64,000 nucleotides of DNA from contig JAUNHC010000012.1 in the NCBI GenBank assembly GCA_030524175.1, positions 1 to 64,000 of the forward strand, read 5' to 3'. Numbering within the stretch: position 1 is the stretch's first letter; each line of letters begins with the position of its first letter. A program made the translations under genes and the position numbers. This DNA comes from Eubacteriales bacterium. Lineage in GTDB: Bacteria > Bacillota > Clostridia > Lachnospirales > Lachnospiraceae. Positions 13,551-56,854 of the stretch are shown one piece after another. The notes beneath the pieces were generated by a model. It made no database searches. It was not told the origin of the DNA and worked only from the letters and a program-made list of their open reading frames with translations.

Positions 13551-13555
13551 TTTGC

Positions 13556-13584: not shown

Positions 13585-13614
13585 TTGTTTATTGGGATTT
13601 TTTACATACCTAAA

Positions 13615-13671: not shown

Positions 13672-13686
13672 TTTTCACAAATTTCT

Positions 13687-19332: not shown

Positions 19333-19376
19333 AACGCATCCTCCTTTTCCACAATTTGAAAATAAAGCATTGCCTG

Positions 19377-20237
19377 TTATCCCGCATACACAGCTTCCTT
19401 AAAATATGGGCTGTGAGTGTTAGGGCAGGGTACCCATCCGGCTGTTCCGTCACTGTTGACTACACGGATAAAAGCATATTGGGAATTATTATATACATGG
19501 GTTATTTTCAGGCTGTCCCCTTCTTTCACCTGAAAAACTTTCTCCTTTAGACCGGCAGTACGGTATACACTGAAATTCCTGGAAGCAGTCCAGCTCCGTT
19601 CCTTATCACTTTCTGCCAGTGGACTTGTTCTGCTTGCCCTGCTGAATTTCCCGTTGATGTAATCATAATTCACTATCCAGTTAAGAGCACCTGCCGCCCC
19701 AAGCTGCCCGTACCATTGAAACTGAATCCGGTTACCTTCCACATTTACCAGATCCATCTTTTCACGATGGTGGAAAATATTCTTATAGGTATTCTTCAAA
19801 TCCAGCACCGGCCGGAAGCGTCCGCCCTGGAAACTATAAAGACGACAGAAATTATAATATTCCGTTTCACTGCACGTGCGGACAAATAAGAATTGTTCCT
19901 GAGTATTCATGGTACAGAGCTTTATATCGTACCGCCATGTGGCATCCCCTTTATAATACGGATCCTCCAGTGTAAAGGCATTTTCCCCATTGACCAGTAT
20001 CTTAAGATACCCCTGTCTGCCGATACCGAAGGAATCGTAATGTGCTGTCTCTACCATTACTTCATCTGCCTTTCCGTCCCCGGTTACGTCATAAATATCA
20101 TAGACACGGTCAGTCTGCAGGGTGACCATAGCTGGATTCATGGCTCTCCCACCTGAAGCAGCCATTGCCTCCCCCGGCACGTACATTATCATCAAAGCTG
20201 CCAATAAACATGTTAACCATTTTCCTGACTTTCTCAT
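19377..20237 (-). CDS. Secreted SH3-type protein, copy 2
   Basis: A 286-residue paralogue of the downstream gene. It has a signal peptide ending around GEAMA, the loop DVTGDGKADEVMV (closer to a true Ca-binding pattern than in copy 1), a middle domain and a C-terminal SH3b-like domain (VYRTAGLKEKVFQVKEGD … GWVPC). It ends in VYAG. The two copies share architecture but have diverged widely in sequence. ATG follows AAGGGGG. First gene of the pair; the 293 bases upstream hold two hairpins belonging to the atp operon end and no clear promoter. Confidence 0.75.
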   Translation of the reverse strand: MRKSGKWLTCLLAALMIMYVPGEAMAASGGRAMNPAMVTLQTDRVYDIYDVTGDGKADEVMVETAHYDSFGIGRQGYLKILVNGENAFTLEDPYYKGDATWRYDIKLCTMNTQEQFLFVRTCSETEYYNFCRLYSFQGGRFRPVLDLKNTYKNIFHHREKMDLVNVEGNRIQFQWYGQLGAAGALNWIVNYDYINGKFSRASRTSPLAESDKERSWTASRNFSVYRTAGLKEKVFQVKEGDSLKITHVYNNSQYAFIRVVNSDGTAGWVPCPNTHSPYFKEAVYAG

Positions 20238-41545: not shown

Positions 41546-41575
41546 AAAAAACCGGAGACAAGTGATTGTCTCCGG
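41546..41575 (-). terminator. Terminator of the 13-gene acid-degradation operon
   Basis: CCGGAGACA (41552-41560) pairs perfectly with TGTCTCCGG (41567-41575), followed on the minus strand by six T (41546-41551). It closes the operon that begins near 55430. Confidence 0.85.
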
Positions 41576-41634: not shown

Positions 41635-42819
41635 CTATTCACACTTTTCAAATAATACAGCCAATCCTTGTCCGCCGCCGATGCACAAGGTCGCTACGCC
41701 ATATTTCACATTTCTGCGGTTCATTTCATTCATCAGCTTGATAGTGATAATGCATCCTGTTGCTCCTATAGGATGTCCCATAGAAATACCGCTTCCATTG
41801 ACATTTACTTTTTCCATATCAAGGCCAAGCTCTCTGATACATGCCAGAGATTGACTGGCAAAGGCTTCGTTAAGCTCAAACAGTCCAATATCCTCCAATG
41901 TAAGACCCGTTTTTTTAAGAAGCTTTTTCACAGCAGGAACTGGTCCTATTCCCATGTAAGCAGGGTCTACACCAGCAGCCGCAGCTTCCACGATCCTTAC
42001 AATAGGAGCGAGCCCGCGTCTTTTTGCTTCTTCGGATTTCATAAGGACAACAGCAGCGCCACAGTCATTGATACCCGAGGCATTCCCCGCCGTAACTGTA
42101 CCATCTTTCTTAAATGCCGGACGCAGCTTTGCCAAAGATTCCAATGTTACATTATCCCTGATATGCTCATCCACCTCAAAAATTTTAGTTTCTTTTTTAT
42201 TAACTTTTACTTCTACAGGAATGATCTCATCCTTGAATTTTCCTTCATCTCTGGCCTTTGCCGCACGTTGTTGACTAACAAGTGCATATGCGTCCTGGTC
42301 TTCACGGGAAATCCCATACCGTTCAGCAATATTTTCTGCAGTTATGCCCATATGGTCTCTTGTAATAGGATCTGAAAGGGCTGTAATAAGACCATCCTCA
42401 AGTTCCGCATGTCCCATACGATATCCATTCCGCGCGTTGCGCAGATAATAAGGAATGTTGTCCATACTCTCACCGCCGCCGGCTACAGCAATATCACAGA
42501 AACCTTGGTCAATCTCCATTGCCGCAGTCAAAATTGCCTGAAGCCCCGATGAACAAAGTCTGTTTACTGTCAAAGCCGTTGCTTCATAGGGAATACCTGC
42601 TTTAATTGAACTCACTCTGGCCATGAATGCATTTTCTGCAGCCTGCCCTACACATCCCATTACCACTTCGTCTACATCTTCCGGTGCGACTTGCGCCCGT
42701 TTCAATGCTTCTTTTATAGCGATACCGCCTAAATCCGTAGCCTCCAGCCCCTTTAAGGATCCCCCAAAGCTGCCTATTGCTGTCCTGGCTCCTGATACAA
42801 TTACAATATTTTCTTTCAT
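41635..42819 (-). CDS. thlA: Thiolase (acetyl-CoA C-acetyltransferase), copy 1
   Basis: The 394-residue thiolase has the nucleophile Cys89 in NRLCSSGLQA, the catalytic His in GHPIGATGC and the second Cys in CIGGGQG. It would cleave a 3-oxoacyl-CoA to acetyl-CoA, or make acetoacetyl-CoA. The last gene of the operon, it lies 3 bases after a second thiolase to which it is similar throughout (ISMGHPIGATGC against ISIGHPIGATGC). ATG follows GAGGGATGAATA. The biosynthetic or degradative direction cannot be read from the sequence; the context favours degradation. Confidence 0.92.
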   Translation of the reverse strand: MKENIVIVSGARTAIGSFGGSLKGLEATDLGGIAIKEALKRAQVAPEDVDEVVMGCVGQAAENAFMARVSSIKAGIPYEATALTVNRLCSSGLQAILTAAMEIDQGFCDIAVAGGGESMDNIPYYLRNARNGYRMGHAELEDGLITALSDPITRDHMGITAENIAERYGISREDQDAYALVSQQRAAKARDEGKFKDEIIPVEVKVNKKETKIFEVDEHIRDNVTLESLAKLRPAFKKDGTVTAGNASGINDCGAAVVLMKSEEAKRRGLAPIVRIVEAAAAGVDPAYMGIGPVPAVKKLLKKTGLTLEDIGLFELNEAFASQSLACIRELGLDMEKVNVNGSGISMGHPIGATGCIITIKLMNEMNRRNVKYGVATLCIGGGQGLAVLFEKCE

Positions 42820-42822
42820 TAT

Positions 42823-44016
42823 TCATCCCTCACATTTCTCAAAATACATGGAAATTCCTTGTCCGCCGCCAATACACATGCTGATCATTGCATTTTTCTT
42901 CTTTGTTCTCATAAGTTCATACATAACTTTTACGGTCAAAATACAGCCTGTTGCTCCAATCGGATGGCCGATGGAAATTCCGCCTCCATAAATATTTACC
43001 TTGTCCATATCAAGGCCTAAATCTCTGCTCACAGCAAAGGCCTGACTGGCAAAAGCTTCATTTATCTCAAACATATCTATCTGCTTTAAATCTATGCCAA
43101 GTTTTGATGCTAACTTTTCACTGGAAAACTTCGGAGAATACCCCATCAGTTCTGCATCAAAACCTGCAACTGTGTATCCTTTTATCAGAAGCTTCGGAAC
43201 AATTCCCAGCTTCTGTGCTTTATCTCTGGACATCACAACAACTGCCGCAGCAGCATCATTCAAGCTGGAAGAATTACCTGCAGTCACTGTTCCATCCTTT
43301 ACAAAACAAGGACGTAGCTTCGCAAGTTTATCAATCGTCTGGTTGTCCCTGGGTCCTTCATCTGTATCAAACACAGTAATATTTCCCTTGCGGTCTTTTA
43401 ATTCCACCGGTACTATTTCTTCCTTGAATATTCCGGATTTTATAGCAGCACATGCTCTCTGATGACTTCTGACAGCATACGCATCTTGTTCTTCTCTTGA
43501 CACATGATATGTATTTGCTACGTTTTCTGCTGTTACACCGTTATGATTTCCATCTAAAGGCCATGTCAATATGTCAATCACGCCATCTTCAAATACCTTG
43601 TTGCCCATCCTGGCACCCCACCGCGCATCCTTGACATAGTAAGGAAGCTGGGAAATATTCTCGGCACCGCCGGCAACCACAATATCAGCAAATCCTGTCT
43701 GTATTTCCATAACTGCGTCAGCAATTGACTGCAGGCTGGAACCACACTGACGGTTCACAGAATAAGCAGTTGTCTCTTTAGGAAGACCTGCCTTCAAACT
43801 GATAGCCCTTGCCGCAAAACCGCTCTCTGCAATCTGACCAACTTGTCCAATAATGACCTCATCCACGTCGGAAGGCTGAAGACCGGCACGTTCTACAGCT
43901 TCTCTCACTACAAGAGCTCCTAAGTCAATTGTCGAAACTCCCTTCAGACTTCCTCCGTAAGCTCCAACAGCAGTCCTGCATCCACTGACGATCACTACAT
44001 CTTTAAATCCACACAT
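42823..44016 (-). CDS. Thiolase (acetyl-CoA C-acetyltransferase), copy 2
   Basis: The 397-residue thiolase has nucleophile Cys91 in NRQCGSSLQS, GHPIGATGC and CIGGGQGISM. The active-site motif differs slightly from copy 1, and the substrate loop around residue 120-160 (YYVKDARWGARMGNKVFEDG) differs too, so the two may act on acyl chains of different length or branching. ATG follows CGGAGGT. Lies between the VOC protein gene and copy 1. Confidence 0.92.
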   Translation of the reverse strand: MCGFKDVVIVSGCRTAVGAYGGSLKGVSTIDLGALVVREAVERAGLQPSDVDEVIIGQVGQIAESGFAARAISLKAGLPKETTAYSVNRQCGSSLQSIADAVMEIQTGFADIVVAGGAENISQLPYYVKDARWGARMGNKVFEDGVIDILTWPLDGNHNGVTAENVANTYHVSREEQDAYAVRSHQRACAAIKSGIFKEEIVPVELKDRKGNITVFDTDEGPRDNQTIDKLAKLRPCFVKDGTVTAGNSSSLNDAAAAVVVMSRDKAQKLGIVPKLLIKGYTVAGFDAELMGYSPKFSSEKLASKLGIDLKQIDMFEINEAFASQAFAVSRDLGLDMDKVNIYGGGISIGHPIGATGCILTVKVMYELMRTKKKNAMISMCIGGGQGISMYFEKCEG

Positions 44017-44045
44017 TTACAATACCTCCGATCAACAAATCATCT

Positions 44046-44447
44046 TCATTTGACACTCTGCACAAATTCCACCAGAACACCGTATCCATAACGCGGCCTT
44101 AAAAAGTTTACAATAATACCGCCAGCTCCCGGAACAGCCGTTTTTTCCAGCATTTCCAATCCCTTATCCTCAAACTCATTTTTTGCCTTCTCCACATCAT
44201 CTACCTCAAAGGCAATGTGATGGAGTCCGCCTTTCCCATCTCTGTATTGGGTAAGCACTCCTTCTGTGGGTATGATCAATTCCACAGGAGACTCTTTTTC
44301 AGTATATTTTGTAAATAGGCAATATGCATGATAAGCCTCAACATATTCCATATAATCTTTCTCTAATCCGAACTGCTCCATAAATGCTTCTGCCTTGTCC
44401 ATCGTGGTCATGATAATTCCCACATGATGTAATCTCATTGGTTTCAC
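44046..44447 (-). CDS. VOC protein, methylmalonyl-CoA-epimerase-like
   Basis: The 133-residue protein is a double beta-alpha-beta-beta-beta (glyoxalase/VOC) fold with metal ligands in the order typical of methylmalonyl-CoA epimerase: His in LHHVGI, Glu in PVELIIP, His in GGLHHIAFEVDD, Glu in VLVEFVQ. No methylmalonyl-CoA mutase or propionyl-CoA gene is in the window, so it may epimerise another 2- or 3-substituted acyl-CoA of this pathway. GTG start 6 bases after AGGAGG; an ATG three codons later is less well placed. Confidence 0.78.
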   Translation of the reverse strand: MKPMRLHHVGIIMTTMDKAEAFMEQFGLEKDYMEYVEAYHAYCLFTKYTEKESPVELIIPTEGVLTQYRDGKGGLHHIAFEVDDVEKAKNEFEDKGLEMLEKTAVPGAGGIIVNFLRPRYGYGVLVEFVQSVK

Positions 44448-44459
44448 CCTTATCCTCCT

Positions 44460-45401
44460 CTACTCTTTATAAAGTTTCTCGGGTACGTTCCAGCAAAAAT
44501 ACTTATCATAAGGGGCTTTTACCCGCTTATGAAGCTCTTCTACTCTTTTCTGATCCCAGTGATATACTCCCCGCCCGCTTTTTACGCCATAATAACCTTG
44601 TTCACATCGTTCATTAATATATTTCTGTACTGCTTTATCGTCTGATAGTTTCGGATACAGATACTCAGATATATCCCTTGCCAGATCCAGCCCGCAATTG
44701 TCAAAATGTTCAAAAATACCTATCTCCGTATACCTCGGCGCAAAACTGAATTTAAGTATTCGGTCAACATCTGACGGTTCGGCTATCCCTTGCTCCACAA
44801 TATGTACAGCTTCTCTTAACATTGCATATTGAAGCCTGTTTGCCACAAAACCAGGGGCATCCTTTTTTAGAATGACCACTTCTCTGTTGAGGATTTTTAA
44901 CAGCTTGGTCAGCGCTTCCAAAGAACCCGGAGAAGTATGATCGTTGGGAACCACCTCCACACAAGGTATTAAATGAGGAGGATAAAAAGGATGTGCTACG
45001 ATCACCTTATCCGGCATCCCGCTTGCTTCAGCCAGCTCGGCTGATGAAATAGCTGATGTAGCTGAAGCAACTACCTGAAGAGAAGGACAATTCTCTCTTA
45101 ATTTAGTAAAAATATCCTGTTTGACCTCTAATTTCTCTGCAGCACATTCAAAAATAACACTTACCTCTTTTAATTCCTCGTAGGAGGTGACTATAAAAAG
45201 ATAAGATTCACAAATCGTTATCTCTTTATCCGTAAGATAACAGTCAGCTGCCAGTTCCTCCAGAATTTTATGGTACCGGGCTTTGTGTTCCTCCGTTTTC
45301 CCTCTTACATACAGATAAGTAGGAATACCGTTTCCCGTAAGGAGCGCACACATGCTAAGTCCTATCATTCCCGCACCGATAACCGCCACTTTTTCTTTCA
45401 T
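44460..45401 (-). CDS. 3-hydroxyacyl-CoA / 3-hydroxyacid dehydrogenase
   Basis: The 313-residue protein has a Rossmann NAD site (VAVIGAGMIGLSMC) and the 3HCDH signatures SATSAISSAEL, AHPFYPPHLIPCVEVVP and GFVANRLQYAMLREAV. The AHPF-PPHL-P-VEV pattern resembles L-carnitine dehydrogenase and L-gulonate 3-dehydrogenase more than classical 3-hydroxybutyryl-CoA dehydrogenase, so it may oxidise a free or branched 3-hydroxy acid. ATG at 45401 follows GGAGGCAGCT. It is the second dehydrogenase of the operon, placed after the importer genes. Confidence 0.82.
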   Translation of the reverse strand: MKEKVAVIGAGMIGLSMCALLTGNGIPTYLYVRGKTEEHKARYHKILEELAADCYLTDKEITICESYLFIVTSYEELKEVSVIFECAAEKLEVKQDIFTKLRENCPSLQVVASATSAISSAELAEASGMPDKVIVAHPFYPPHLIPCVEVVPNDHTSPGSLEALTKLLKILNREVVILKKDAPGFVANRLQYAMLREAVHIVEQGIAEPSDVDRILKFSFAPRYTEIGIFEHFDNCGLDLARDISEYLYPKLSDDKAVQKYINERCEQGYYGVKSGRGVYHWDQKRVEELHKRVKAPYDKYFCWNVPEKLYKE

Positions 45402-45428
45402 AGCTGCCTCCATTTTTTCCTACATCGA

Positions 45429-46136
45429 TCAAATACCAAGATAGGCGGCCTGTATTTCTTCATTAGCAAGCAAATCAGCTGCCTTACCTTCCATAACGAT
45501 ATTTCCTGTTTCAAGAACATATCCCCTGTCTGCGACAGACAAGGCCTGATTGAGGTTCTGTTCTACGATCAATATACTTACCCCTTGTTTCGCAACATTA
45601 GATATGATTTCAAACATATCTTTCACAACAATCGGCGCCAGTCCAAGTGAAGGTTCATCCAGCATCAATAATTTCGGACTTATCATTAATGCTCTGGCTA
45701 TAGCCAGCATCTGCTGCTCACCTCCGCTTAGAGAACCAGCCATCTGATTCTGCCGCTCTTCCAGAATCGGAAACATAGCAAAAGATTTCTTTATATTATC
45801 CTCCATATTGGCTCTCGCCGCTTTAGGATACGCCCCCATCACCAGATTCTCTTTTACACTGAGACTTCCCAGAATGCCTCGCCCTTGGGGTATATGGGCA
45901 ATCCCATGATCTGCTTTTTCATATGGTTTAATTTTCAACAGGTCTTTCCCCTGATAGGTGATACTTCCAGACTTGATAGGTTCCAGGCCGGAAAGAATAC
46001 GGAGTAATGTTGTTTTTCCCGCTCCATTGGAGCCGACCAGCGAAACAACCTCTCCTTCGTCCACGTTCATAGAGATATTAAACAGAACCTGTAAATCGCC
46101 GTAACCAGCGCATAAATCCTTAATTTCCAGCAACAT
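45429..46136 (-). CDS. livF: Liv-type ABC importer ATPase LivF
   Basis: The 235-residue ATPase has Walker A GSNGAGKTT, signature LSGGEQQML and Walker B KLLMLDEPSLGLAP, followed by the switch His region (ILIVEQN, where Gln replaces His as usual in LivF). The ATG at 46136 lies 6 bases after GGGAGGTG and overlaps livG by 17 bases. Energises uptake with LivG. Confidence 0.93.
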   Translation of the reverse strand: MLLEIKDLCAGYGDLQVLFNISMNVDEGEVVSLVGSNGAGKTTLLRILSGLEPIKSGSITYQGKDLLKIKPYEKADHGIAHIPQGRGILGSLSVKENLVMGAYPKAARANMEDNIKKSFAMFPILEERQNQMAGSLSGGEQQMLAIARALMISPKLLMLDEPSLGLAPIVVKDMFEIISNVAKQGVSILIVEQNLNQALSVADRGYVLETGNIVMEGKAADLLANEEIQAAYLGI

Positions 46137-46854
46137 CGGCTTCACCTCCCAAATATGCAGCTACTACATCAGGATTATTAAGCACTTCCCTCGGCTCACC
46201 TTCACATAGTAATTTCCCCTGATTCAGAACTATAGCCCTTGTACACACAGAGACAACGGCCTTCATTACGTGTTCAATAAAAAGTACGGTAATACCTTCT
46301 TTATTAATGGTTCTGATCAACTCCAAACTGGATTCCATTTCTGCAGGATTCAGTCCCGCCATAACTTCATCCATCATAATGATTTTGGGCTTTGTTGCCA
46401 TACAGCGTGCCAAATCCATCCATTTTCTTTTTTCAATGGACAGCTTCCCGCCTTTCACACTTCTCAGTTCATATAATTGTGTCAGATTAAGAATTTCATT
46501 GGTCAATTCTGCTGCCTGAGTCTTTGTATTTCGCTGCAGTGCAATTGTATAAATATTGTCATAGACAGACAGATGGGCAAAAGGTTTGGGAGTCTGAAAG
46601 GTTCTCCCTATACCCAGTTTAGCCCGGTCAGCAATACTCATTTTGGTTGGTATTTCTTTACCGTCAAAAACAATTTTCCCGTTATTCTGGACATAAACCC
46701 CTGAGATCATATTCACTGTCGTGGACTTGCCCGACCCATTAGGACCGATCAAAGCCAGAACCTCCCCTTTATCTATGTGGAAATTAAGGTTCTGCACTGC
46801 TTTTATACCGCCGAAGGATATAGATAAATCTGTAACTTCCAGTAATTTTCCCAT
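46120..46854 (-). CDS. livG: Liv-type ABC importer ATPase LivG
   Basis: The 244-residue ATPase has Walker A GPNGSGKST, the LivG-specific FQTPKPFAHLSVYDN region and Walker B KIIMMDEVMAGLNP. The signature motif is unusual: GGKLSIEKRKWMDLARC has LSIEKRK where LSGGQ/YGxQRR is normal, which could lower ATPase activity or reflect a subfamily. ATG follows AAGGAGGGGG and overlaps the livM stop by one base. Confidence 0.9.
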   Translation of the reverse strand: MGKLLEVTDLSISFGGIKAVQNLNFHIDKGEVLALIGPNGSGKSTTVNMISGVYVQNNGKIVFDGKEIPTKMSIADRAKLGIGRTFQTPKPFAHLSVYDNIYTIALQRNTKTQAAELTNEILNLTQLYELRSVKGGKLSIEKRKWMDLARCMATKPKIIMMDEVMAGLNPAEMESSLELIRTINKEGITVLFIEHVMKAVVSVCTRAIVLNQGKLLCEGEPREVLNNPDVVAAYLGGEADVAGN

Positions 46855-47852
46855 TATGCCCCCTCCTTTTTCCTTCTGAACCGGAAACCTGAAGCTCTGT
46901 TTTCCGTTTTATCCTTGTGAAAGAATCCAATAATACCTTCAGGTTTGAAGATAATCACCAGCATGAGCAGCAAGCCGTACACCATTTGACTCCCGCCCGC
47001 AGCGCCGAACAATACACTGGTAGCCTCAATTAACAGAATAACTACAAAACCGCCGATCACAGGTCCCCAGAGGCTTGCAACTCCTCCAACGATGGCCACC
47101 ACACCAATTTTCATAGACAAGTCAAAGCTTGCTGTACTTGTAGGTGCTATATATGTCAAAAATGAGGCGTAGAAGCACCCAACCAGGGATGCCATCATGG
47201 CACTTATCTGGAATGCTTTTAATTTGACTTTAAAAGTCTCAATCCCGAGAGATTCCGCTGCCGTTTCGTCGCCCTTAATAGCACTCAGGTAATACCCTGT
47301 TTTGGATTTTGTGAACATATATGTAATAAATACCACCAGAAGCAGAATAACAAGCGCAATATAGTAAAATGGGATATCATTGGCAAATGTCAGTGCCCAG
47401 AAATCACTTTTTCTATAGGTTACATACATTCCTGCCGCACCTTTCGTCACTGTATCAAAATGTTGTATCAAGACACGGATCGCTTCACAGCAGGCTATGG
47501 TTGCGATGGAAAAATAGGGGCCATGAAGCCTGAATGTGGCATAACCAATAACTGTTGCAATTACTGCTGCTGCAATCATACCCACCGGAATTGATACAAA
47601 TGGAGAAAGGCCTAACTCTGTACTTAAAATAAAGTTGGCATAGGCTCCCATAGCGATAAAGGACGCATGACACCAGGATACCTGTCCTCCGTAACCGCCT
47701 ATAATATTCCAACATCCGGCCATTGCTCCGAAGAACATGCAATTCACAAGGTTGGAAATAACATAATTTCCTGGTGTAAATGCCGGTAAAAGGAGGGCCG
47801 CCGCCAAGAGAACATAACCCGGAATAAATTTTTTAGACATATACTTTTTCAT
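46854..47852 (-). CDS. livM: Liv-type ABC importer permease LivM
   Basis: The roughly 332-residue permease has eight to nine membrane segments and family signatures such as GGYGGQVSWCHASFIAMGAY, GYATFRLHGPYFSIATIA and IKGDETAAESLGI. ATG at 47852 overlaps the livH stop (ATGA) and follows AAAGGAG; the longer in-frame extension to 47921 lies inside livH and is rejected. Pairs with LivH as the channel. Confidence 0.92.
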   Translation of the reverse strand: MKKYMSKKFIPGYVLLAAALLLPAFTPGNYVISNLVNCMFFGAMAGCWNIIGGYGGQVSWCHASFIAMGAYANFILSTELGLSPFVSIPVGMIAAAVIATVIGYATFRLHGPYFSIATIACCEAIRVLIQHFDTVTKGAAGMYVTYRKSDFWALTFANDIPFYYIALVILLLVVFITYMFTKSKTGYYLSAIKGDETAAESLGIETFKVKLKAFQISAMMASLVGCFYASFLTYIAPTSTASFDLSMKIGVVAIVGGVASLWGPVIGGFVVILLIEATSVLFGAAGGSQMVYGLLLMLVIIFKPEGIIGFFHKDKTENRASGFRFRRKKEGA

Positions 47853-48724
47853 GCTTGCCGTTCTCCTTTCCCAAAGAATCCTTGTGGTCTCAAATAAAGA
47901 ACAATCAAAAGTGCCAAACATATACCTACCGGCCCCAGATCAATGGCTATCAGACCTGTAACAAGAGCTTCGATAATACCAATAGCGATACCTCCCACAA
48001 GGGCGCCCTTGATATCCCCAAGTCCACCTATAATAACCGCTATATATGCGGTGGTACGGAACATATGTCCGGACGTAGGCGTCACATAATATAATGGAGT
48101 AATTAAAAGGCCGGACAGTCCTGCAAAAATAACTCCGATCATAAATGCGATAGTAAAAGTTTTTTTTGTATTGATTCCCAGCATTTGTGCAACCTCAGGC
48201 TTTTCCGAAGTGGCTCTCATTGCCCTTCCAAGAGTCGTCCTGTTCAGAAGCATATATACGCCCAATACAAGAATAACCATTGCAAAAAAAGCAATAAGTC
48301 TAGGCAGACCAATACTGTACTCCCCAAGCATTATGGAAGATGTCTTGATAGAAGACGGAACAGATTTCGGATTTGCACCAAATATAAACTCAGCGAGATT
48401 CTGCAAAAAATACGATAAACCTAAAGTAACAAGAATAAATGAGGTATCGTCAGATCCTAGCAAAGGTCTTACGATCAATTTAAATACCACCCACGCCAGG
48501 GCTCCCATACATATCACCACAAACGGTATTGCCCAATAGCAGTTCAGTCCCGTCACCGAGTAAAAAATCCAGGTGAAATACATTCCCCACACCAACTGAG
48601 TACATGCGGAGAAGTCTACCATTTTCATAACTCCGAAGATAATCGTAATACCCACGCCGAACAGAGCATAAACTCCACCGGCCAGAATACCGCTTATCAA
48701 AGATTGGAAAAATACCCAAGTCAT
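47849..48724 (-). CDS. livH: Liv-type ABC importer permease LivH
   Basis: The 291-residue permease has about eight membrane segments and the LivH pattern GVGITIIFGVMKMVDFS near the N-terminus and RATSEKPEVAQMLGIN in the cytoplasmic loop that contacts the ATPases. ATG follows AGAGGAGG. A 13-bp hairpin in the 70-base gap separates it from the binding-protein gene, which probably lowers its expression relative to that gene. Confidence 0.92.
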   Translation of the reverse strand: MTWVFFQSLISGILAGGVYALFGVGITIIFGVMKMVDFSACTQLVWGMYFTWIFYSVTGLNCYWAIPFVVICMGALAWVVFKLIVRPLLGSDDTSFILVTLGLSYFLQNLAEFIFGANPKSVPSSIKTSSIMLGEYSIGLPRLIAFFAMVILVLGVYMLLNRTTLGRAMRATSEKPEVAQMLGINTKKTFTIAFMIGVIFAGLSGLLITPLYYVTPTSGHMFRTTAYIAVIIGGLGDIKGALVGGIAIGIIEALVTGLIAIDLGPVGICLALLIVLYLRPQGFFGKGERQA

Positions 48725-48746
48725 TTAGCAACCTCCTCTTTACGCA

Positions 48747-48776
48747 ATACGGGATGTATAAAAATACATCCCGTAT
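48747..48776 (-). promoter_or_regulatory. Hairpin between livK-like gene and livH
   Basis: ATACGGGATGTAT and ATACATCCCGTAT form a perfect 13-bp stem with an AAAA loop and no T-run. Such intercistronic hairpins often stabilise the binding-protein message or partly attenuate the downstream genes. Confidence 0.65.
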
Positions 48777-48794
48777 ATGCACCTATATATCGAC

Positions 48795-50063
48795 TTATTT
48801 CTGCATTGCCTTTAAGTCGTCAGTCATCTGGAACTCAATACCAGCTTCATCATCCGGGAATACACAACGTGTTCTGTAAACATCGTCATCACCCTTCTGC
48901 CACTGGACGATTACTGCATGGGCACTATTATTGGCACCTGTTTCGTCAAAAGCTACTGCTCCACCAGGAGTGGCGGCTTCACAAGTAAGTGCACGAAGGG
49001 CTTCCGCTACTGCTGCGTGATCCGTAGTTCCTGCGTTTTCCAAAGCCTGTGCGATCAGGTAAATAGCACTGAAGGCGGATGCGCCCTGCTCCGGCATAAA
49101 ATAACCGTATTCTTTTTCAAACTGTTCTCCGATATCTGCAATCTCAGAATTATTGGTAATTGTCTGTATATCGTAATTATGTCCGGTTACAGAAACTACA
49201 CCGTCAACCAAATCTCCCAGCTCTTCGCCGAAGGACGGATACAAGAAACCGCCGCCTCCGCCAATGATCAGCGGTGTGTAATTCATTGACTTCATGGTGT
49301 TAAATAAAAGCTTAGCATCCTGGGTATAGCATGTGGGGAATACTACTTCGCAGCCGGCATTTTTAAGACCAACCACAATATTTGTAAGGTCAGAGGAACC
49401 TGCAGTAAATGACTCATTATAAGCAATTTCCAGTCCTGAACCCTCTGCCACTGAATTCTCAATAGCAGTCACGGCACCTGATGTGTTGGAAATTCCCCAC
49501 TCTGTGTCTTCATATACAATACCTACTTTGGTGATTCCAAGATTGTATTCTTCATTCAGCCATTCCAGGAACTTAACCTGGTATTCGGAAAAACTTCCGC
49601 CAGTGGAACCAAATCGGAAAGTATATTGATATCCCTGATTTGTAATGGCTTCTGAAACCTGAGCTGTCAAGAACGGCATAGTATTTTTCTCGAACACCGG
49701 AAGCATCGGCAGTACAAAAGAGCTGGAGGCAGCACCGGTAACTGCCACAATATCAGGATTCTCATTTATCAGACGCTCCGCCACTGCTTTTGACTGGTCC
49801 GCATCGGACTGGTTATCATAAGAAACAAGCTCCAGTTTCTTTCCGCCAAGTGCTTTAATTCCACCGTTATTATTTATGTAATCAATTGCAAACTGACAGC
49901 CGTCTATATTAAAAACGCCCTGATCAGCATTGTTGCCCGTGATAGGGAATACACACCCCACTTTGATGGTTTCATTTTCCGCCTCTGCTGAAACAACAGT
50001 TGCCAAAGACATTACTGTCATAACACCAGCCAATAACCCTGCTAATAATTTTTTACCTTTCAT
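48795..50063 (-). CDS. livK: Liv-type solute-binding protein
   Basis: The 422-residue family 5 periplasmic-binding protein (IKVGCVFPITGNNADQG…, GAASSSFVLPMLPVFEKNTM) has a signal peptide that ends near VVSAEAE. It has no lipobox cysteine, so the product seems to be fully secreted or held by its uncleaved signal. Family members bind branched-chain amino acids, but also amides, urea and small or aromatic carboxylates. Its position inside an acyl-CoA degradation operon suggests a carboxylic acid ligand. ATG at 50063 follows GGGAGGG. Confidence 0.85.
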   Translation of the reverse strand: MKGKKLLAGLLAGVMTVMSLATVVSAEAENETIKVGCVFPITGNNADQGVFNIDGCQFAIDYINNNGGIKALGGKKLELVSYDNQSDADQSKAVAERLINENPDIVAVTGAASSSFVLPMLPVFEKNTMPFLTAQVSEAITNQGYQYTFRFGSTGGSFSEYQVKFLEWLNEEYNLGITKVGIVYEDTEWGISNTSGAVTAIENSVAEGSGLEIAYNESFTAGSSDLTNIVVGLKNAGCEVVFPTCYTQDAKLLFNTMKSMNYTPLIIGGGGGFLYPSFGEELGDLVDGVVSVTGHNYDIQTITNNSEIADIGEQFEKEYGYFMPEQGASAFSAIYLIAQALENAGTTDHAAVAEALRALTCEAATPGGAVAFDETGANNSAHAVIVQWQKGDDDVYRTRCVFPDDEAGIEFQMTDDLKAMQK

Positions 50064-50089
50064 TTTGAACCCTCCCATACATTTTCTTT

Positions 50090-50938
50090 TTATTTGTATT
50101 CGTAAAAACCTTTACCTGTTTTTCTGCCCAGCAAATGAGCATTTACCATTTTTTTAAGCAACGGGCACGGTCTGTACTTCGGATCTCCCAAGTCCTCATA
50201 CATCTGTGTCATAACTGCCAGAACCGTATCCAAACCAGCAAAATCTGTTAATTCCAGAGGGCCCATAGGAAAATTAGCGCCTAATTTCATAGAGCGGTCG
50301 ATATCCTCTGGTGCATTACCCTCCATAGCAAGAAAAATTGCTTCATTTTGCATCGGAACCAGCATTCTGTTTACCAGAAAGCCTGAAGTATCAGGTGCTT
50401 TTATTGCCTCCTTTCCAATTTTTTCCGCAAAACCAAATGCCCTTTCTTCTGTCTCACCACTTGTAAGTATTCCGGGAATGATTTCCAGCAGCTTCATCGC
50501 GGGCGGCGGAACAAAGAAATGTGTTCCTATCACACGGTCAGGATGTTTCGTCGCACCGGCAATTTTTGTAATAGAAATTGTGGATGTATTAGTTGCTAAA
50601 ATTGCATTCTCATTCATGATTTCATCAAGCTGCTCAAAGATTTTAAGCTTGATCCCTACATTTTCTGTTGCAGCCTCGATCACCATATCTGCATCAGAAC
50701 CATCCTTGTAGTCTCCGCTTGTTGATAACAAAGAAATTGCTTTGTCTTTCACTTCCTGAGTAATCTTCCCTTTTTCAATTTTCCTCTGCAGGAAATGTTC
50801 AATTTTTGATTTTCCCTTATCTGCAAATTCCTTTGTTACATCAGTAAGCACAGTCTCAATTCCATGTTCAATGCACACCTGTGCAATCCCACTTCCCATA
50901 ATACCCGCGCCCACTACCATTACCTTGTCGACACTCAT
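50090..50938 (-). CDS. hbd: 3-hydroxybutyryl-CoA dehydrogenase
   Basis: The 282-residue NAD(P)-dependent dehydrogenase has [13 protein letters not shown], the catalytic region [29 protein letters not shown] (His of the catalytic dyad), [15 protein letters not shown] and [15 protein letters not shown]. It matches classical Hbd/PaaH in length and motifs. It oxidises 3-hydroxyacyl-CoA to 3-oxoacyl-CoA for the thiolases. It starts 1 base after the CoA-transferase stop, with AAGGAGG inside that gene's end. Confidence 0.93.
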
Positions 50939-50939
50939 G

Positions 50940-52535
50940 TCACTGCCTCCTTTTTTTGTTATGTAATATCTCCTTCAACCCATCCCATTTTTCGAGATAA
51001 ATCCGGGTATCCGTAATTTTGAGATTCTCAGATATCAAAGGTACAAAATCCATTTGATCAAGGATATCCTTCTGTAAATCAATTCCCTTGGCTATTTCCA
51101 CCAGCATAGGACCTTCCGGTGTAAGCCGAAATACTGCACGCTCTGTCACATAAACCATATTCTGTTTGATTTCACCGGCAATTCTTCCGTTATAGGAAAT
51201 CTGCTGTACCTCTTTTACCATCTTTCGGATTTTTCCTTCTTCTGCAATGTGCAGTCCTCTTTCATCAAATTCTACTTTCAATCCTTTACCAGTAAATGTA
51301 GAGCAGAAAATAACATTTTTTGCAGTTGTTGTAATATCAATGAATCCTCCTGCTCCGGGTGATTTATCCCCCATCTTGGTCGCATTGACATTTCCCTTTC
51401 CATCCATTTCACCAGCGCCCATAAAGGTATAGTCTATTCCTGCGCCGTTATAATATTCAAACTGCCTGTCGTGGGGAATTAATGCCTGTGCATTTTTAGA
51501 AACTCCAAAATCTATCCCTCCTGCGGGAACCCCGCCATAGATTCCTGATTCCACAGTGATAGTAATATCTTCCCCAATATCCTCTTCCGCGATAATGGCA
51601 CCGATAACGTCATTGGGAATACCAGTCCCCACATTAATAACCACGTCTGGCTCCAACTCCATCATGGCTCTTCTGCCTATCACCTTTCTCACATTTAATG
51701 GAATAGGATCTCCCTTTGATTCGGGTGCAAGGGCCTGTCCACTGTAAGCCGGATCAAAATACCAGGATGAGGATTGCCGATGGTTCTGGATCGGATCGTC
51801 ACATACCACCACTGCATCCACCAAAACACCGGGCACCACTACTTCTTTAGGATTTATACTTCCGGCCTTCACCACCTGTTTGACCTGGCAGATAACCTGT
51901 CCCCCAAATCTCTTTGCCGCCATCACTGCCGGAAGCAGCTCCAGTACCATTGCTTCCTCCTGCGTGGAAATATTTCCATTCTCATCAGCATATGTACCTC
52001 TAATTAAAAGTGTATCGATGGGAATCTCCCGGTACCGCAGATACTCTTCGCCGTCAAGTTCAACTACATCTAGAATATCCTCCAAGGGCTTTGTCCTGTC
52101 ATTCATTTTCCCCCCTTCAATCCGGGGATCAATAAAGGTTCCCAAACCTACTTTACTGATTTTTCCCGGCTCTCTCAGGGCCATACTATGAAACATATTT
52201 GCCATTTGGCCCTGTGGAAGATTATATGCTTCCACTTTATTCTGTGAGATCAATTCCATCATTTTGGGACACAGCCCCCAATGACCGCCAATGACTCTTT
52301 TCGTCAATCCTTCATTGGCCATATGGTAAACTGCTCCTGCGCTCCTGTCTGACTGTCCGCAGGTATGCAGGTAAGTAAGCTGATTGGGTTCTCCTGTCTC
52401 CAGAAAACTCTGCTCCAATTCTTTGAGAATTGTTTCGCAGGCAGATACTAAGGTCATTCCAATTGTACAAAGAGTTGTCCCATTCTTAATTCTGCCAACA
52501 GCCTCTTTTGCCGAAATAAATTCAGGTTTCCTCAT
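50940..52535 (-). CDS. Family I CoA-transferase (propionate/3-oxoacid type)
   Basis: The 531-residue protein is a fused alpha-beta family I CoA-transferase of the Pct/YdiF type. The N-terminal half carries [10 protein letters not shown] and the [10 protein letters not shown] loop. The C-terminal half carries the catalytic Glu in [14 protein letters not shown], followed by [20 protein letters not shown] and [13 protein letters not shown]. It transfers CoA from acetyl-CoA or another donor to a short-chain acid, which may be the imported substrate. ATG follows AAGGAGGACGGT. Lies between the acyl-CoA ligase and hbd genes. Confidence 0.9.
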
Positions 52536-52566
52536 ACCGTCCTCCTTTTGCTGACTCCTTTGAATT

Positions 52567-54144
52567 TCACTGTTTCAAAAACTTTTTCTCGAATATTTCT
52601 CTCAACTTTTTCTTTTTTATCTTACCGTTTGCTGTCAACGGTAATGTGTCCGCTTTCCATATCTCCATATATTGAGGCAGTTCGAACTTTCCAATATGTT
52701 TGGACAAATCTTCCTGAATATGTTCCAGACAAATCTTTTCCCCTGCCTTTTCCACCAATACCGCTGCCGGCACTTCTCCGTAAAGCTCATCACCCACAGC
52801 AAAAACTACTGCCTGTTCAATACCCGGATACTTTAGAAGCACACTTTCTATAGAAGAAGGAAAAATCTTTTCTCCGCCCCTGTTTACTACATCTTTAATC
52901 CTGTCCAGAAAATAGATATCTCCGTTCTTATCCTTTCTGATAATGTCGCCTGTAAAAAGTTTTCTGCTCTCAGAGGATTTTCCTCCCCATACTTTAGTAG
53001 TTACAACGGGACCTTCACAGACAGCTTCACCTTCTCCAAAATCTGAAATTATTCCTGTTTTGATATCTGCTACAGATATATGACAATTTGGAACTTCTCT
53101 TCCCGGTTTTCCATGTTCATATGATAAAACCCCGGATCCGGCGGTCTCCGTCAGTCCATACGCAATCCTGAAAGACGCATTTGGCGCCATTTCACAAAAT
53201 TTATCTCTGTACTCCCGGCTGATAACAGCACCGCCGCACACGGCAATTTTCAAGGATGTCAAATCATATTTTGCCGCTGCTTCCTGTATCATCTTTATAT
53301 ATACTGCCGGTACAGAATGGAAATGAGTAGCATGATATGTTTCTATTGCCTGGAGGACACGGTTAGAGTCAAATTTATCGAAAACCACCAGTGTTGCTCC
53401 CATGTAGAGAAACATAGTGGATACACAGCTAAGGCCAAGAATATGAAAAACAGGCACCGACAAAACCGAAATATCATGCTCATCAAGGCCAAGGACATCC
53501 TGATATCCATAGGATGTTCCCATAATATTTTTGTGGGTTACCATAATACCTTTTGGTCTACCTGTAGTTCCTGAAGTATGAAGTATGACTGCAGTTAATT
53601 CATCCTCCCGGACACTGGAAAATTCGTCTGGATTTTCCCCACACTCCTTTTGTAATATGTAATCCATTGATGTGAGATAGACGCCTGGGATTTTTTCCCC
53701 GGTTTGGTTTTCTGTGATTATTTTTTTAATTCCCAACTGAGGTATGATCTCTTTAACTTTATCTATCCATCTTTGATTCATGATCAGATATTTAGTGTCT
53801 GTATCACTCAAAACATATTCGATTTCTCCGCTTTGCATCTTAGTATTAACTAATACAGCAATAGCACCCAGCTTCATCAGTGCATAAAAAGCAATATAAA
53901 ATTCAATGCTGTTTACAAATAAAAGGCCAATCCTTTCCCCTTTCTTAATGCAAAATTCCCTTTTTAGATAGTGCGCAAGACAGTTAGTTTTTTTTAGAAG
54001 CTGACTATAAGTTATGCTTCCTTTCTCATCTATCACCGCCGTTTTATCAGGAAATCTTATGGCAGAAGCCTCAAGTAAGTCGTACAAATTTTTATGAGTA
54101 TCAGGATATTTCTTCCATCTGTCACTTGCGTTGTTATCCCGCAT
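52567..54144 (-). CDS. Acyl-CoA synthetase (class I AMP-forming ligase)
   Basis: The 525-residue ANL enzyme has the P-loop motif TSGTTGRPKGIMVTHKN, the YGLTET motif (IAYGLTETAG), LFTGDIIRKDKNGDIYFLDR and a C-terminal PLTANGKIKKKKLRE with the catalytic Lys. It activates a carboxylic acid to its CoA thioester with ATP. The operon thus has two independent routes of CoA activation. Similar to CaiC/FadD-type ligases; substrate not readable from sequence. Ribosome binding site GTGGTGATA is moderate. Confidence 0.9.
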   Translation of the reverse strand: MRDNNASDRWKKYPDTHKNLYDLLEASAIRFPDKTAVIDEKGSITYSQLLKKTNCLAHYLKREFCIKKGERIGLLFVNSIEFYIAFYALMKLGAIAVLVNTKMQSGEIEYVLSDTDTKYLIMNQRWIDKVKEIIPQLGIKKIITENQTGEKIPGVYLTSMDYILQKECGENPDEFSSVREDELTAVILHTSGTTGRPKGIMVTHKNIMGTSYGYQDVLGLDEHDISVLSVPVFHILGLSCVSTMFLYMGATLVVFDKFDSNRVLQAIETYHATHFHSVPAVYIKMIQEAAAKYDLTSLKIAVCGGAVISREYRDKFCEMAPNASFRIAYGLTETAGSGVLSYEHGKPGREVPNCHISVADIKTGIISDFGEGEAVCEGPVVTTKVWGGKSSESRKLFTGDIIRKDKNGDIYFLDRIKDVVNRGGEKIFPSSIESVLLKYPGIEQAVVFAVGDELYGEVPAAVLVEKAGEKICLEHIQEDLSKHIGKFELPQYMEIWKADTLPLTANGKIKKKKLREIFEKKFLKQ

Positions 54145-54200
54145 ATTATCACCACTTCATTTTCTTTTTGTTAATATCTTTATCACATCTCTTTGTATTA

Positions 54201-55340
54201 TCATGAGATTTTCTGCCCTATTTGAATGGACCGCATGACACGCTCAATTGCATTTTCCACCAAAACTTCTGCATTCTGTATTGCCTCATCCAAATGCATT
54301 GGTTTGCAAACTGCGGCCTCCATGGTCGTTACTCCCTTTTCATATATAGCTTCTGCTCCATACTCAATGGAACCAGAGACTGCCACAACAGGTATATCTT
54401 TATCTTTAGCCATTTTAGAAATTCCCGAAATAACCTTACCGAAAGCAGACTGACGGTCGATTTTCCCCTCGCCGGTGATAACGATATCTGCCCATTTCAA
54501 TTTTTCCTCAAATCCTGCCACTTCCAAAATGGCGTCAATTCCGGACTTTATCTTAGCTCCTGCAAATGCTACCAACCCGGCACCAAGCCCTCCGGCTGCC
54601 CCTGCACCGCGCATGTTTTCCAATTCCATGCCCATCTGTTCTTTTATCACTTCAGCAAAATGCTTTAAGCCTCTGTCCAGTTCAAGAATTTGTTCCGGTG
54701 TGGCACCTTTCTGAGGTCCGTAGACGGCTGCCGCCCCTAATTCTCCGCAAAGAGGGTTTATTACATCACACATAACAATGATCTCCCGTCCCTTAAGGCG
54801 CTTATCAACCTTCGAGGTATCAATTGTTTCAACACGGCAAAGCTCTTTTCCACCAAATCCAATTTCCCTTCCGTCTTTATCCAAAAAAGAATATCCTAAT
54901 GCCTGTGCCATTCCCAAGCCGCCGTCATTGGTTGCGGATCCGCCTATTCCTATGTATATCTGGGAACAATCTTCGTCCAATGCTGCCCGGATCAGTTCCC
55001 CTGTGCCATAGGTGGTTGCTGACATTACATCCCGCTCTTTTGCAGGGATCAGCGGCAGTCCAGATGCAGCAGCCATTTCAATAACTATTTTCTTGCCCGG
55101 CAATACACCATATACTGCCTCAATCTTTTTTCCATTAGGTGCGGTTACAACTACAGTACGATATTCCCCACCCAGACTACTCACCATTGCTTCTACGGTA
55201 CCTTCTCCTCCGTCTGCAACCGGGACGCACATAAATTCGGCATCGGCATATACCTTCCTCACACCTTTTTTAATTTGTTCTGCAACCTGCATTGTACTCA
55301 GACTTCCCTTATACGAATCTGAGGCCAGTAACAATTTCAC
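54201..55340 (-). CDS. garK: Glycerate kinase (GarK/GlxK type)
   Basis: The 379-residue protein has the glycerate kinase I family features: LLASDSYKGSLSTMQVAEQI at the start, VADGGEGTVEA, GIGGSATNDGGLGMAQALG and VITGEGKIDRQSAFGKV. It phosphorylates D-glycerate to 2-phosphoglycerate. A GTG at 55340 lies 6 bases after AAAGGAGGAG; upstream in-frame codons overlap that site. First gene of the operon and next to cdaR, the usual regulator of glycerate genes. How glycerate fits the downstream acyl-CoA steps is unclear. Confidence 0.9.
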   Translation of the reverse strand: MKLLLASDSYKGSLSTMQVAEQIKKGVRKVYADAEFMCVPVADGGEGTVEAMVSSLGGEYRTVVVTAPNGKKIEAVYGVLPGKKIVIEMAAASGLPLIPAKERDVMSATTYGTGELIRAALDEDCSQIYIGIGGSATNDGGLGMAQALGYSFLDKDGREIGFGGKELCRVETIDTSKVDKRLKGREIIVMCDVINPLCGELGAAAVYGPQKGATPEQILELDRGLKHFAEVIKEQMGMELENMRGAGAAGGLGAGLVAFAGAKIKSGIDAILEVAGFEEKLKWADIVITGEGKIDRQSAFGKVISGISKMAKDKDIPVVAVSGSIEYGAEAIYEKGVTTMEAAVCKPMHLDEAIQNAEVLVENAIERVMRSIQIGQKIS

Positions 55341-55434
55341 AAAATACTCCTCCTTTACGCCCACTAATTCTTATGCATAAAGCACAATTCTTTTTATCTG
55401 TTTTTGATATTTATGTGCGCTTTCACTAATTAGA

Positions 55435-55463
55435 ATTGTATAAAACCGCAAACATTATCACAA
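55435..55463 (-). promoter_or_regulatory. Promoter of the acid-degradation operon
   Basis: TTGTGA (55458-55463), 17-bp spacer, TACAAT (55435-55440), giving a leader of about 90 nt before glycerate kinase. The -35 is non-consensus, as expected for an activated promoter. Confidence 0.5.
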
Positions 55464-55471
55464 TATTACCC

Positions 55472-55500
55472 ATACCAAATAATTTCATTGTTTTTGGTAT
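55472..55500. promoter_or_regulatory. Possible CdaR operator
   Basis: ATACCAAA (55472-55479) and TTTGGTAT (55493-55500) form a perfect 8-bp inverted repeat with a 13-bp spacer. It begins about 10 bp upstream of the -35 box of the operon promoter, the normal place for an activator such as the adjacent CdaR. Confidence 0.4.
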
Positions 55501-55611: not shown

Positions 55612-56775
55612 TTACAACACATGGTCGAATTCATAAATCAGCATGGCAATATAGAGGGGAATGGATTCCTTAATGTTTCTGGGATCATAGCCGGTCATTT
55701 CTTTTAGTTTGGTCAGCCTGTACTGCAGAGTATTTTTGTGGATAAAACAATCCTCTGCTGTTTTCGTTATGGAGCCATTGTTTTCGGAATAGCAACGCAG
55801 CAGCTGTACCCACCTGATAATATCGCTCTCCTGGCAATCCTTAAACACACGTTTGACAAACATTTCTCTGTCGTGCTTGGATATATTTTCAAGCAGCAGC
55901 TCTATATCAGCATCGCTGTATACCTTAATACGCCTGTTTTTCAGACGCATGGCTAAATTACAGGCTGTGTCAGCCTCACGGTAAGAACGGCGGATTTCTA
56001 TACGGTTAGTGCCGGCCGTGCCGATCCCGCAGTAAACCATACAGTCATACTGCTTCTCCACACTCTCTGTAATCTGTTTTACAACATTGAAAACTTCTAT
56101 GGTCTTTGAACTGTGAAAAAAAATAACCACCTTTGTGCCAATCTGGAAAACCAAATGCTGTGCATCCTGTTTCAGATACCTCCTGATTTCTTTGATGATC
56201 CTGTCATACAGTTTCTGCTCCACTTCTGCTTCCCTGATTTTCTCATTCTCTTTCTTATGAACAATACCAAGAACCACAACAACACGGTTTAAATTAATAT
56301 CAATACCGAGCAGCTGACCGCGGAAATTCATGGTTTCCTCTGTCTCCCCACTATCCTCACTGGCAAAAAGCCAGCTGAAAACAAAATTGTTTTTCATGTT
56401 TTCCATAATCTTTTTCTGGTTATTCTGGTAGCTGTCCATAATAAGGATCTTAGTCATCTTCTGGATGATCTTACCCAGTATCTGGACCTCTTCCTTTTCG
56501 CCGGTAATTCCCACAACTCCTACAATTTCGTCTTCTATAATGATTGGAAGATTAATTCCGTTTTTTGCCCCTGCATATTGATCATGGCTGCAAATAACAA
56601 GCTCATCCAGCTTTTGGCTGATAACCTGCTGGGCACCTGAATGATATGTACCAATTCTTGACATATCTGAACTGGCAATAATACAACCTGTCTCATCCAT
56701 AATATTAATGTTTTTTTGTATGGTGTCCTCTAATTCCTCCACGATATTCTGCATCTGTTTTCTGGGTATAATCAT
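55612..56775 (-). CDS. cdaR: CdaR-type sugar-diacid/glycerate regulator
   Basis: The 387-residue protein has an N-terminal diacid-recognition domain (residues 1-135, with MDETGCIIASSDMSRIGTYH and INLPIIIEDEIVGVVGITG), a middle GGDEF-like region and a C-terminal PucR-type HTH (TAEDCFIHKNTLQYRLTKLK). CdaR activates genes for glycerate, galactarate and glucarate use in response to the acid. ATG at 56775 follows AGGTGAGGTG. It lies directly upstream of the glycerate kinase operon, in the same direction but with its own promoter (56855-56883) and terminator. Confidence 0.9.
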   Translation of the reverse strand: MIIPRKQMQNIVEELEDTIQKNINIMDETGCIIASSDMSRIGTYHSGAQQVISQKLDELVICSHDQYAGAKNGINLPIIIEDEIVGVVGITGEKEEVQILGKIIQKMTKILIMDSYQNNQKKIMENMKNNFVFSWLFASEDSGETEETMNFRGQLLGIDINLNRVVVVLGIVHKKENEKIREAEVEQKLYDRIIKEIRRYLKQDAQHLVFQIGTKVVIFFHSSKTIEVFNVVKQITESVEKQYDCMVYCGIGTAGTNRIEIRRSYREADTACNLAMRLKNRRIKVYSDADIELLLENISKHDREMFVKRVFKDCQESDIIRWVQLLRCYSENNGSITKTAEDCFIHKNTLQYRLTKLKEMTGYDPRNIKESIPLYIAMLIYEFDHVL

Positions 56776-56854
56776 AACTATACACCTCACCTATTCTGCG
56801 GCAGACAGCCGCTATCTGCATTTTTCGCATTATGGATTGGTAGAGTTGTAAATT

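Follow-up and report, generated by a model that had tools for sequence, protein, structure and literature searches.

A thirteen-gene operon-like unit in a Lachnospiraceae genome that probably serves the anaerobic catabolism of 2-deoxypentonic acids

We analysed a stretch of 64,000 nucleotides from a Eubacteriales bacterium of the Lachnospiraceae (GenBank assembly GCA_030524175.1, contig JAUNHC010000012.1, positions 1 to 64,000), hereafter the window. Its minus strand carries a run of 13 genes leading from a glycerate kinase gene (54201-55364) to a thiolase gene (41635-42819). As an earlier reading of the same DNA (the original prediction) had proposed, these 13 co-directional genes are confirmed as a real operon-like unit for import and degradation. 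By analogy with a pathway published for Klebsiella michiganensis, we consider it probable that the operon serves the anaerobic catabolism of 2-deoxypentonic acids, that is, 3,4,5-trihydroxypentanoates such as 2-deoxyribonate or its stereoisomers.

In the proposed scheme, a Liv-type ABC importer would take up the 2-deoxypentonic acid, a synthetase would prime it as a CoA thioester and the 3-hydroxyacyl-CoA dehydrogenase hbd1, perhaps with the second dehydrogenase hbd2, would oxidise C3 with NAD. A thiolase would then split the 3-keto acyl-CoA into acetyl-CoA and glyceryl-CoA, and a VOC protein would epimerise C2 of glyceryl-CoA to make D-glyceryl-CoA available. The CoA-transferase would shift CoA from glyceryl-CoA to a newly imported acid molecule, which would spare ATP and set glycerate free for conversion to 2-phosphoglycerate by glycerate kinase. 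We infer every one of these reactions from the observed gene content, gene order, conservation, absences, active-site residues and linkage, and the substrate class from the published genetics of K. michiganensis. We are fairly sure of the products, acetyl-CoA and glycerate, and not sure of the stereochemistry of the substrate or of what the second dehydrogenase and the second thiolase do. The suggestion that the substrate enters as a 3-hydroxy acid, possibly as a pair of epimers, and is cleaved to acetyl-CoA is supported; glycerate kinase had been listed without being used in that reading, and a release of glycerate beside acetyl-CoA indicates a C5 3,4,5-trihydroxy acid.

The gaps between consecutive genes are 56, 31, 1, 11, 70, -73, -1, -26, 15, 12, 29 and 3 bases, where the overlaps (negative values) are computed from the first possible start codon of each gene. 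Pfam and NCBIfam back the family of nine of the 13 genes and of the adjacent regulator, and for the nine genes scanned they agree with the families first assigned; for the two Liv permeases and the two Liv ATPases, the names come from sequence and conservation. The run opens with a glycerate kinase of the GlxK/GarK class (glxK; PF02595, 485 bits; TIGR00045, 475 bits), an AMP-forming acyl-CoA synthetase (ACS) predicted to prime the acid (52567-54144; PF00501) and a family I CoA-transferase of the YdiF/FadX/LapA type (50940-52535; CoA_trans), whose TVESG motif contains the presumed catalytic Glu. It closes with two BktB-type thiolases, thl2 (42823-44016) and thl1, the thiolase gene named above.

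A neighbourhood search for the same gene order, which the original prediction had proposed, found it in a congener: in genome G009 (locus L043) the order of 14 genes, including the CdaR-type regulator gene upstream, is identical, so that the order is not a product of chance. Twelve of the 14 proteins are 76-93 % identical between the two loci, while the synthetase (63 %) and hbd2 (59 %) are less conserved. Within the genus, five of 64 genomes have the VOC gene and all five have the CoA-transferase and hbd1 along with it. Four of these five have glycerate kinase within the cluster or at its edge; the fifth, G026, has its cluster cut off by the end of a 13.9-kb contig.

Transcription of the run from one promoter to one terminator had also been proposed. 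The terminator stands: downstream of thl1 a strong intrinsic terminator (41546-41575, minus strand) consists of a 10-bp hairpin (41575-41552) followed by TTTTTT. The promoter fared less well, since a scan with the promoter consensus found sites at chance level (36 against 39.7 +- 6.6 in shuffled sequences), yet the region 5' of glxK is conserved between the window and L043 as TTGTGA/TTGTTA-17-TACAAT (TTGTGA-17-TACAAT at 55463-55435, minus strand, in the window). Next to it lies an inverted repeat, ATACCAAA-N13-TTTGGTAT (55500-55472, minus strand; promoter region and repeat together span 55435-55500), whose equivalent in L043 is AACAAA...TTTGTT, with both arms altered. This repeat is a candidate CdaR operator. 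The regulator itself, with a sugar-diacid recognition domain and a PucR helix-turn-helix (55612-56790, minus strand; PF05651/PF13556), is 81 % identical to the protein at the same place in L043. Because a hairpin with a T run sits between cdaR and glxK, cdaR is probably a separate transcript.

The operon had been noted to lack an acyl-CoA dehydrogenase and a crotonase, and we can extend this observation to the genome: neither crotonase (PF00378) nor acyl-CoA dehydrogenase (PF02771) has a match in the 5.95-Mb assembly, while control genomes were positive in 13 and 10 of 14 cases, respectively. The assembly (119 contigs) is 90.7 % complete, and the absence is therefore not absolute. Beta-oxidation, butyrate formation and the propionate/methylmalonyl routes were rejected on the strength of whole-genome searches that returned no match. 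For a 2-deoxypentonate neither enzyme is needed because the acid already has its 3-hydroxyl.

That no described pathway has such a gene set no longer holds. In the study of K. michiganensis M5al by Price et al. 2019 (PMC6365646), mutant fitness data point to one cluster as important during growth on deoxyribonate; it encodes a CoA-synthetase, a CoA-transferase, a beta-hydroxyacyl-CoA dehydrogenase, a thiolase, a lactonase, two MFS transporters and glycerate kinase. The proposed route there leads from deoxyribonyl-CoA through 3-ketodeoxyribonyl-CoA to glyceryl-CoA and acetyl-CoA, and then to glycerate and 2-phosphoglycerate; those authors suggest that the CoA-transferase may turn glyceryl-CoA into glycerate. 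They describe deoxyribonate as a product of DNA damage and metabolic waste, of which a typical adult excretes about 25 mg/day. In the GapMind paper (PMC9007349), an unknown glyceryl-CoA hydrolase is listed as a missing step.

We compared the window with the Klebsiella pneumoniae counterpart of this cluster rather than with the K. michiganensis strain itself. In a tblastn search of a plasmid collection with the window CoA-transferase, three K. pneumoniae records lead at 55.0-55.2 % identity and the next stands at 45.5 %, among the best 40 of 288 matches. The K. pneumoniae locus L058 (CP125156.1) has a gene series matching the published K. michiganensis locus tags, plus a CdaR-type regulator. 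Identity to the window is 55 % over 520 aa for the CoA-transferase, 54 % and 53 % for thl2 and thl1, 41 % for glycerate kinase, 28 % for the synthetase and 24 % for CdaR. A VOC gene in Klebsiella was considered as a homologue of the window VOC gene and dropped, as BLAST gave no match at 1e-3; it is not used as support. The record CP125156.1 is labelled a plasmid, although at 5.37 Mb it is chromosome-like. A plasmid-borne Klebsiella copy of the cluster (L059, NZ_CP091979.1) has the IS3-type element ISKpn1 at 12589-13952, between the thiolase gene and the first MFS gene.

To place the operon among its relatives, we scanned 84,980 species genomes by CoA-transferase alignment and kept the best 80 of the 112 relatives obtained; the scan was seeded with two exact peptides and does not capture every relative. 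With four same-genus loci and one Klebsiella locus this gives 85 loci, in which two genomes appear twice (L044/L063 and L045/L064), as they do among the Hbd rows below. The open reading frame (ORF) caller retains the longest frames that do not overlap and overlooks some genes, among them that of the CoA-transferase in L080, L138, L141 and control L155; two tallies of Pfam families among neighbours cover 159 of 226 unassigned ORFs and the first 25 families per tally. In a quick tree of 91 CoA-transferase rows, the 84 family rows form one clade with a support (SH-aLRT) of 100, apart from seven controls, control L155 having dropped out; the outer root is unsure given the long control branches. 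The Klebsiella CoA-transferase falls inside this clade, and the window protein sits in a subclade of 26 rows; of the 17 rows with a VOC gene, 15 fall there.

Glycerate kinase of either family is found in 28 of the 85 loci, and in 24 of the 52 loci of at least 20 kb. By comparison, the script found it in none of eight control loci around distant CoA-transferase homologues, and none is annotated in the seven annotated controls (control L151 has no annotation and was checked for glycerate kinase by the script alone). Chance linkage would be expected in about 0.6 % of cases, an arithmetic estimate that assumes one glycerate kinase gene per genome of about 3.3 Mb; as background, 40 of the 64 genomes of the genus have a glycerate kinase match, with at most three each, and 24 have none. 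Outside the sampled genus, the Liv-type operon closest to that of the window among those found is L072, where the gene directly after hbd2 encodes a DUF4147/MOFRL protein (18827-20065) in place of GlxK. We take this protein to be of an unrelated second class of glycerate kinase, in which case the function is filled by two unrelated families.

Some relatives carry phosphotransferase system (PTS) and class II aldolase genes or crotonase genes, so that this CoA-transferase family is not confined to a single substrate. In five loci (L111, L118, L120, L121 and L124), PTS genes, a PRD-type regulator and a class II aldolase lie upstream of ACS, CoA-transferase, hbd1 and thl2; L121 was assigned to this sub-variant by Pfam and the other four by length and tally. 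The arrangement suggests a phosphorylated entry route into the same chemistry. A 4HBT thioesterase occurs in eight of the 85 loci. A crotonase or acyl-CoA dehydrogenase gene is in view in six (L080, L085, L094, L099, L116 and L127), by BLAST with few references; the crotonase-type genes of L080, L085, L094 and L099, three of which are Mediterraneibacter records, may mark a dehydrating variant. Among the eight controls, acyl-CoA dehydrogenase is annotated in four (L061, L150, L152 and L155), of which the script, whose reference sequences were taken from these same controls, found three.

In Anaerobium acetethylicum (L066, L170/L171), thl1 is preceded, about 1 kb away and on its own strand, by genes for an Rbs-type importer, glycerate kinase and acetate kinase, and the Liv importer genes follow downstream. 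This genome also has two hbd1 genes (L170:7606-8451 and L171:7971-8816) with equal score to the window hbd1 (73 %, 427 bits). They flank a run of the Rbs-type importer and pathway genes, and one is near a contig end, perhaps where the assembly broke at a repeat.

The dehydrogenase hbd1 (50090-50938; 3HCDH) differs from the usual Hbd at the active site, where the Asn after the catalytic His (HFFNP) is replaced (V143 in the window). Every hbd1 row with 46 % identity or more (35 rows, or 33 if repeated genomes are counted once) has V, I, M, Y or F at this position, while the Hbds of butyrate clusters keep the Asn in eight of eight. Six hbd1-like rows below 46 % were set aside, all with Asn (L150, L099, L078, L134, L094 and L080). 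Identity by itself does not split the two groups, because butyrate Hbds are 42-48 % identical to hbd1. Of the 85 loci, 54 have a FabG-type short-chain dehydrogenase/reductase (SDR) with an identity of 50 % or more, 39 have an hbd1-like gene and 20 have the two together, and one operon position may hold either of them. FabG-type enzymes usually act on D-3-hydroxy substrates and HADH enzymes on L-3-hydroxy substrates, with exceptions among the SDRs. We derive a D arrangement at C3 for 2-deoxy-D-ribonate. Since the window has Hbd-type enzymes and no close SDR anywhere in its genome (none of FabG type in the operon; the best in the genome is 46 % identical to a relative's SDR used as query), we infer that its substrate would not be 2-deoxy-D-ribonate but a 2-deoxypentonate of the threo type or the L series.

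The second dehydrogenase, hbd2 (44460-45413; 3HCDH), has an unsure role. A search with it found just two HADH-family genes in the genome, both within the operon, and its nearest known structures and families are FHMPC dehydrogenase and lambda-crystallin, which we take to be enzymes acting on free acids. In the neighbourhoods inspected, its relatives of up to 45 % identity are not accompanied by the other operon genes, and they gave no substrate clue. It is conceivable, though we consider it unlikely, that hbd2 oxidises the free acid in the manner of L-gulonate or carnitine dehydrogenases and that the CoA-transferase charges the 3-keto acid, hbd1 being a parallel CoA route, so that the operon would have two entry routes or handle two epimers. 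The nearest relatives of hbd2 fit this idea, as does the lack of an SDR of at least 50 % identity in the four hbd2-bearing loci (window, L043, L072 and L068), one of which, L068, however, spans 8.6 kb only. Against it, none of the other proteins compared has diverged as far between the two congeners as hbd2.

Use of the ketone bodies acetoacetate or 3-hydroxybutyrate, with CoA-transferase, Hbd and thiolase leading to acetyl-CoA and the glycerate kinase being incidental, is slightly less probable still. The three enzyme families fit, and the CoA-transferase matches the 3-oxoacid and acetate CoA-transferase models weakly. Such a route leaves the linkage of glycerate kinase across the family and its non-homologous replacement in L072 to coincidence, makes a separate synthetase superfluous, and agrees poorly with the changed Hbd active site and with a VOC protein related to a putative lactoyl-CoA epimerase.

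The VOC protein (44046-44447; Glyoxalase_4) is of the methylmalonyl-CoA epimerase type and aligns with the methylmalonyl-CoA epimerase structures 1jc4 and 3oa4. Residues H8, E56, H77 and E127, which we take to be the metal-ligand positions of this fold, are kept in 17 of 17 relatives. A function as methylmalonyl-CoA epimerase is not supported, with 73 bits against a cut-off of 115 for TIGR03081 and no match to methylmalonyl-CoA mutase in the genome. Searching 378 genomes of the family at E <=1e-25, we found the VOC gene in six, the window's included; in all six it is clustered with a CoA-transferase gene, and in five the two are directly adjacent. In two of the six (L174 and L175) the order is CoA-transferase, VOC, a BadF-type ATPase, two HGD-D subunits and then lactate permease, with the genes identified by Pfam in L174 and by gene lengths and similarity in L175. 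This is the order of the lap cluster of Coprococcus catus for lactate use via acrylate, in which lapB is named a putative lactoyl-CoA epimerase, itself a prediction (PMC8914356). Glyceryl-CoA is lactoyl-CoA plus one hydroxyl, and because relatives of the VOC protein in lactate-acrylate clusters are putative lactoyl-CoA epimerases, they provide an independent pointer to glyceryl-CoA. We predict by this analogy that the window VOC protein is a glyceryl-CoA epimerase. Among the papers listed by literature searches on glyceryl-CoA, lactoyl-CoA epimerase, deoxyribonate and variant names, none was on such an enzyme.

Two Hbd and thiolase rounds could convert a longer deoxy acid hydroxylated at C3 and C5, for instance a 2,4-dideoxy-heptonate, to two acetyl-CoA and glyceryl-CoA, and the two dehydrogenases and two thiolases of the operon would then each have a use. 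We consider this improbable: L066, with the same Liv-type set, has one thiolase and no hbd2, while L072 and L068 have two Hbds and one thiolase, and we know of no natural acid of this kind.

The operon holds a full Liv set, comprising the substrate-binding protein (48795-50078; PF13458, Peripla_BP_6), a LivH-type permease (47849-48724; named by sequence and position, 90 % identical to L043), a LivM-type permease (46854-47921), a LivG-type ATPase (46120-46854) and a LivF-type ATPase (45429-46145), the last three named by sequence and conservation in L043. An importer of this type in such a cluster is less unusual than first thought, since a LivH-like gene occurs in 17 of the 85 loci; other family loci have importers of the Rbs, TRAP, MFS, SSF, GntP and PTS types. 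The best relative of the binding protein in the Protein Data Bank is 8wch. Aligned with leucine-binding protein, the Ser79 position is kept in seven of seven binding proteins, the Thr102 position is Val in five, among them that of the window, and Thr in those of L078 and L102, and the Glu226 position is Gly or Ala in seven of seven, in a column that borders an alignment gap. We take Glu226 of LivJ and leucine-binding protein to be the amine-binding residue, and the roles of Ser79 and Thr102 are likewise assumed. The loss of Glu226 argues for a ligand other than an amino acid, and binding of leucine, isoleucine or valine, the outcome that had been named as speaking against the original prediction, appears less likely. 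Catabolism of branched-chain amino or keto acids with a true Leu/Ile/Val importer is thus very unlikely, for although the importer is Liv-type, the Glu226 and Thr102 positions are changed and the genome has no match for acyl-CoA dehydrogenase or crotonase.

Several observations weigh against 2-deoxypentonate catabolism as we propose it. The substrate stereoisomer probably differs from that of Klebsiella, because the Klebsiella SDR has no orthologue among the window dehydrogenases, and the SDR of the genome that comes closest to the query reaches 46 %; the synthetase has low identity to its Klebsiella counterpart, and the operon has no lactonase. The second dehydrogenase and the pair of thiolases exceed what the scheme needs. 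No glycerate kinase is in view in 28 of the 52 full-length family loci, and the loci with PTS and aldolase or with crotonase genes point the same way. Five of the hbd1-like rows below 46 % come from CoA-transferase-family loci and keep the Asn, and in the window the VOC and CoA-transferase genes belong to one gene run but are not adjacent, with about 6.5 kb between them.

In a wider and tentative proposal, to which we give somewhat less than even weight, gut anaerobes would ferment stereoisomers of 2-deoxypentonate through a closed CoA cycle, in which the CoA-transferase exchanges CoA between glyceryl-CoA and the acid taken up and the VOC protein epimerises glyceryl-CoA. Because of this exchange no glyceryl-CoA hydrolase would be needed. 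The presence of Hbd (L-3-hydroxy) or FabG-type SDR (D-3-hydroxy), plus the epimerase, would sort the clusters by stereochemistry, with the window in the threo or L-series. The operon family offers a testable answer to the missing glyceryl-CoA hydrolase step, namely CoA transfer and epimerisation, and related clusters with several kinds of importer occur in many Lachnospiraceae and beyond.

Elsewhere in the window, a 491-aa protein (30908-32383, minus strand) matches the GntR helix-turn-helix family in two stretches and otherwise helix-turn-helix families only. A GH32 glycosidase gene next to that of an extracellular solute-binding protein (10470-13465, minus strand) marks a probable sucrose or fructan uptake locus.

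Three known systems resemble the operon in part. With the butyrate cluster of Lachnospiraceae (thl-crt-hbd-bcd-etf) it shares the thiolase and Hbd families, but it lacks crt, bcd and etf and its Hbd has the active-site Asn replaced. With the lap cluster it shares the CoA-transferase and the VOC protein resembling methylmalonyl-CoA epimerase (43-44 % and 44-49 % identical, respectively, to L174/L175); unlike that cluster, where the two genes are adjacent, the window has them apart, has no 2-hydroxyacyl-CoA dehydratase or lactate permease, and has Hbd, thiolase and glycerate kinase instead. The closest likeness is to the acyl-CoA deoxyribonate pathway of Klebsiella, which has CoA-synthetase, CoA-transferase, 3-hydroxyacyl-CoA dehydrogenase, thiolase and glycerate kinase in one cluster, flanked in the K. 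pneumoniae counterpart, as in the window, by a CdaR-type regulator. Where Klebsiella has an SDR of FabG type (in the K. pneumoniae counterpart) and MFS transporters, the window has HADH-type dehydrogenases and the Liv ABC importer; it has no lactonase or MFS transporters in the operon, and adds the LapB-like VOC protein and a second thiolase. Judged from the sequences, what is new relative to the published pathway is the Hbd-type dehydrogenase with its changed Asn, the Liv importer whose binding protein appears to lack the amine-binding Glu, and the VOC protein.

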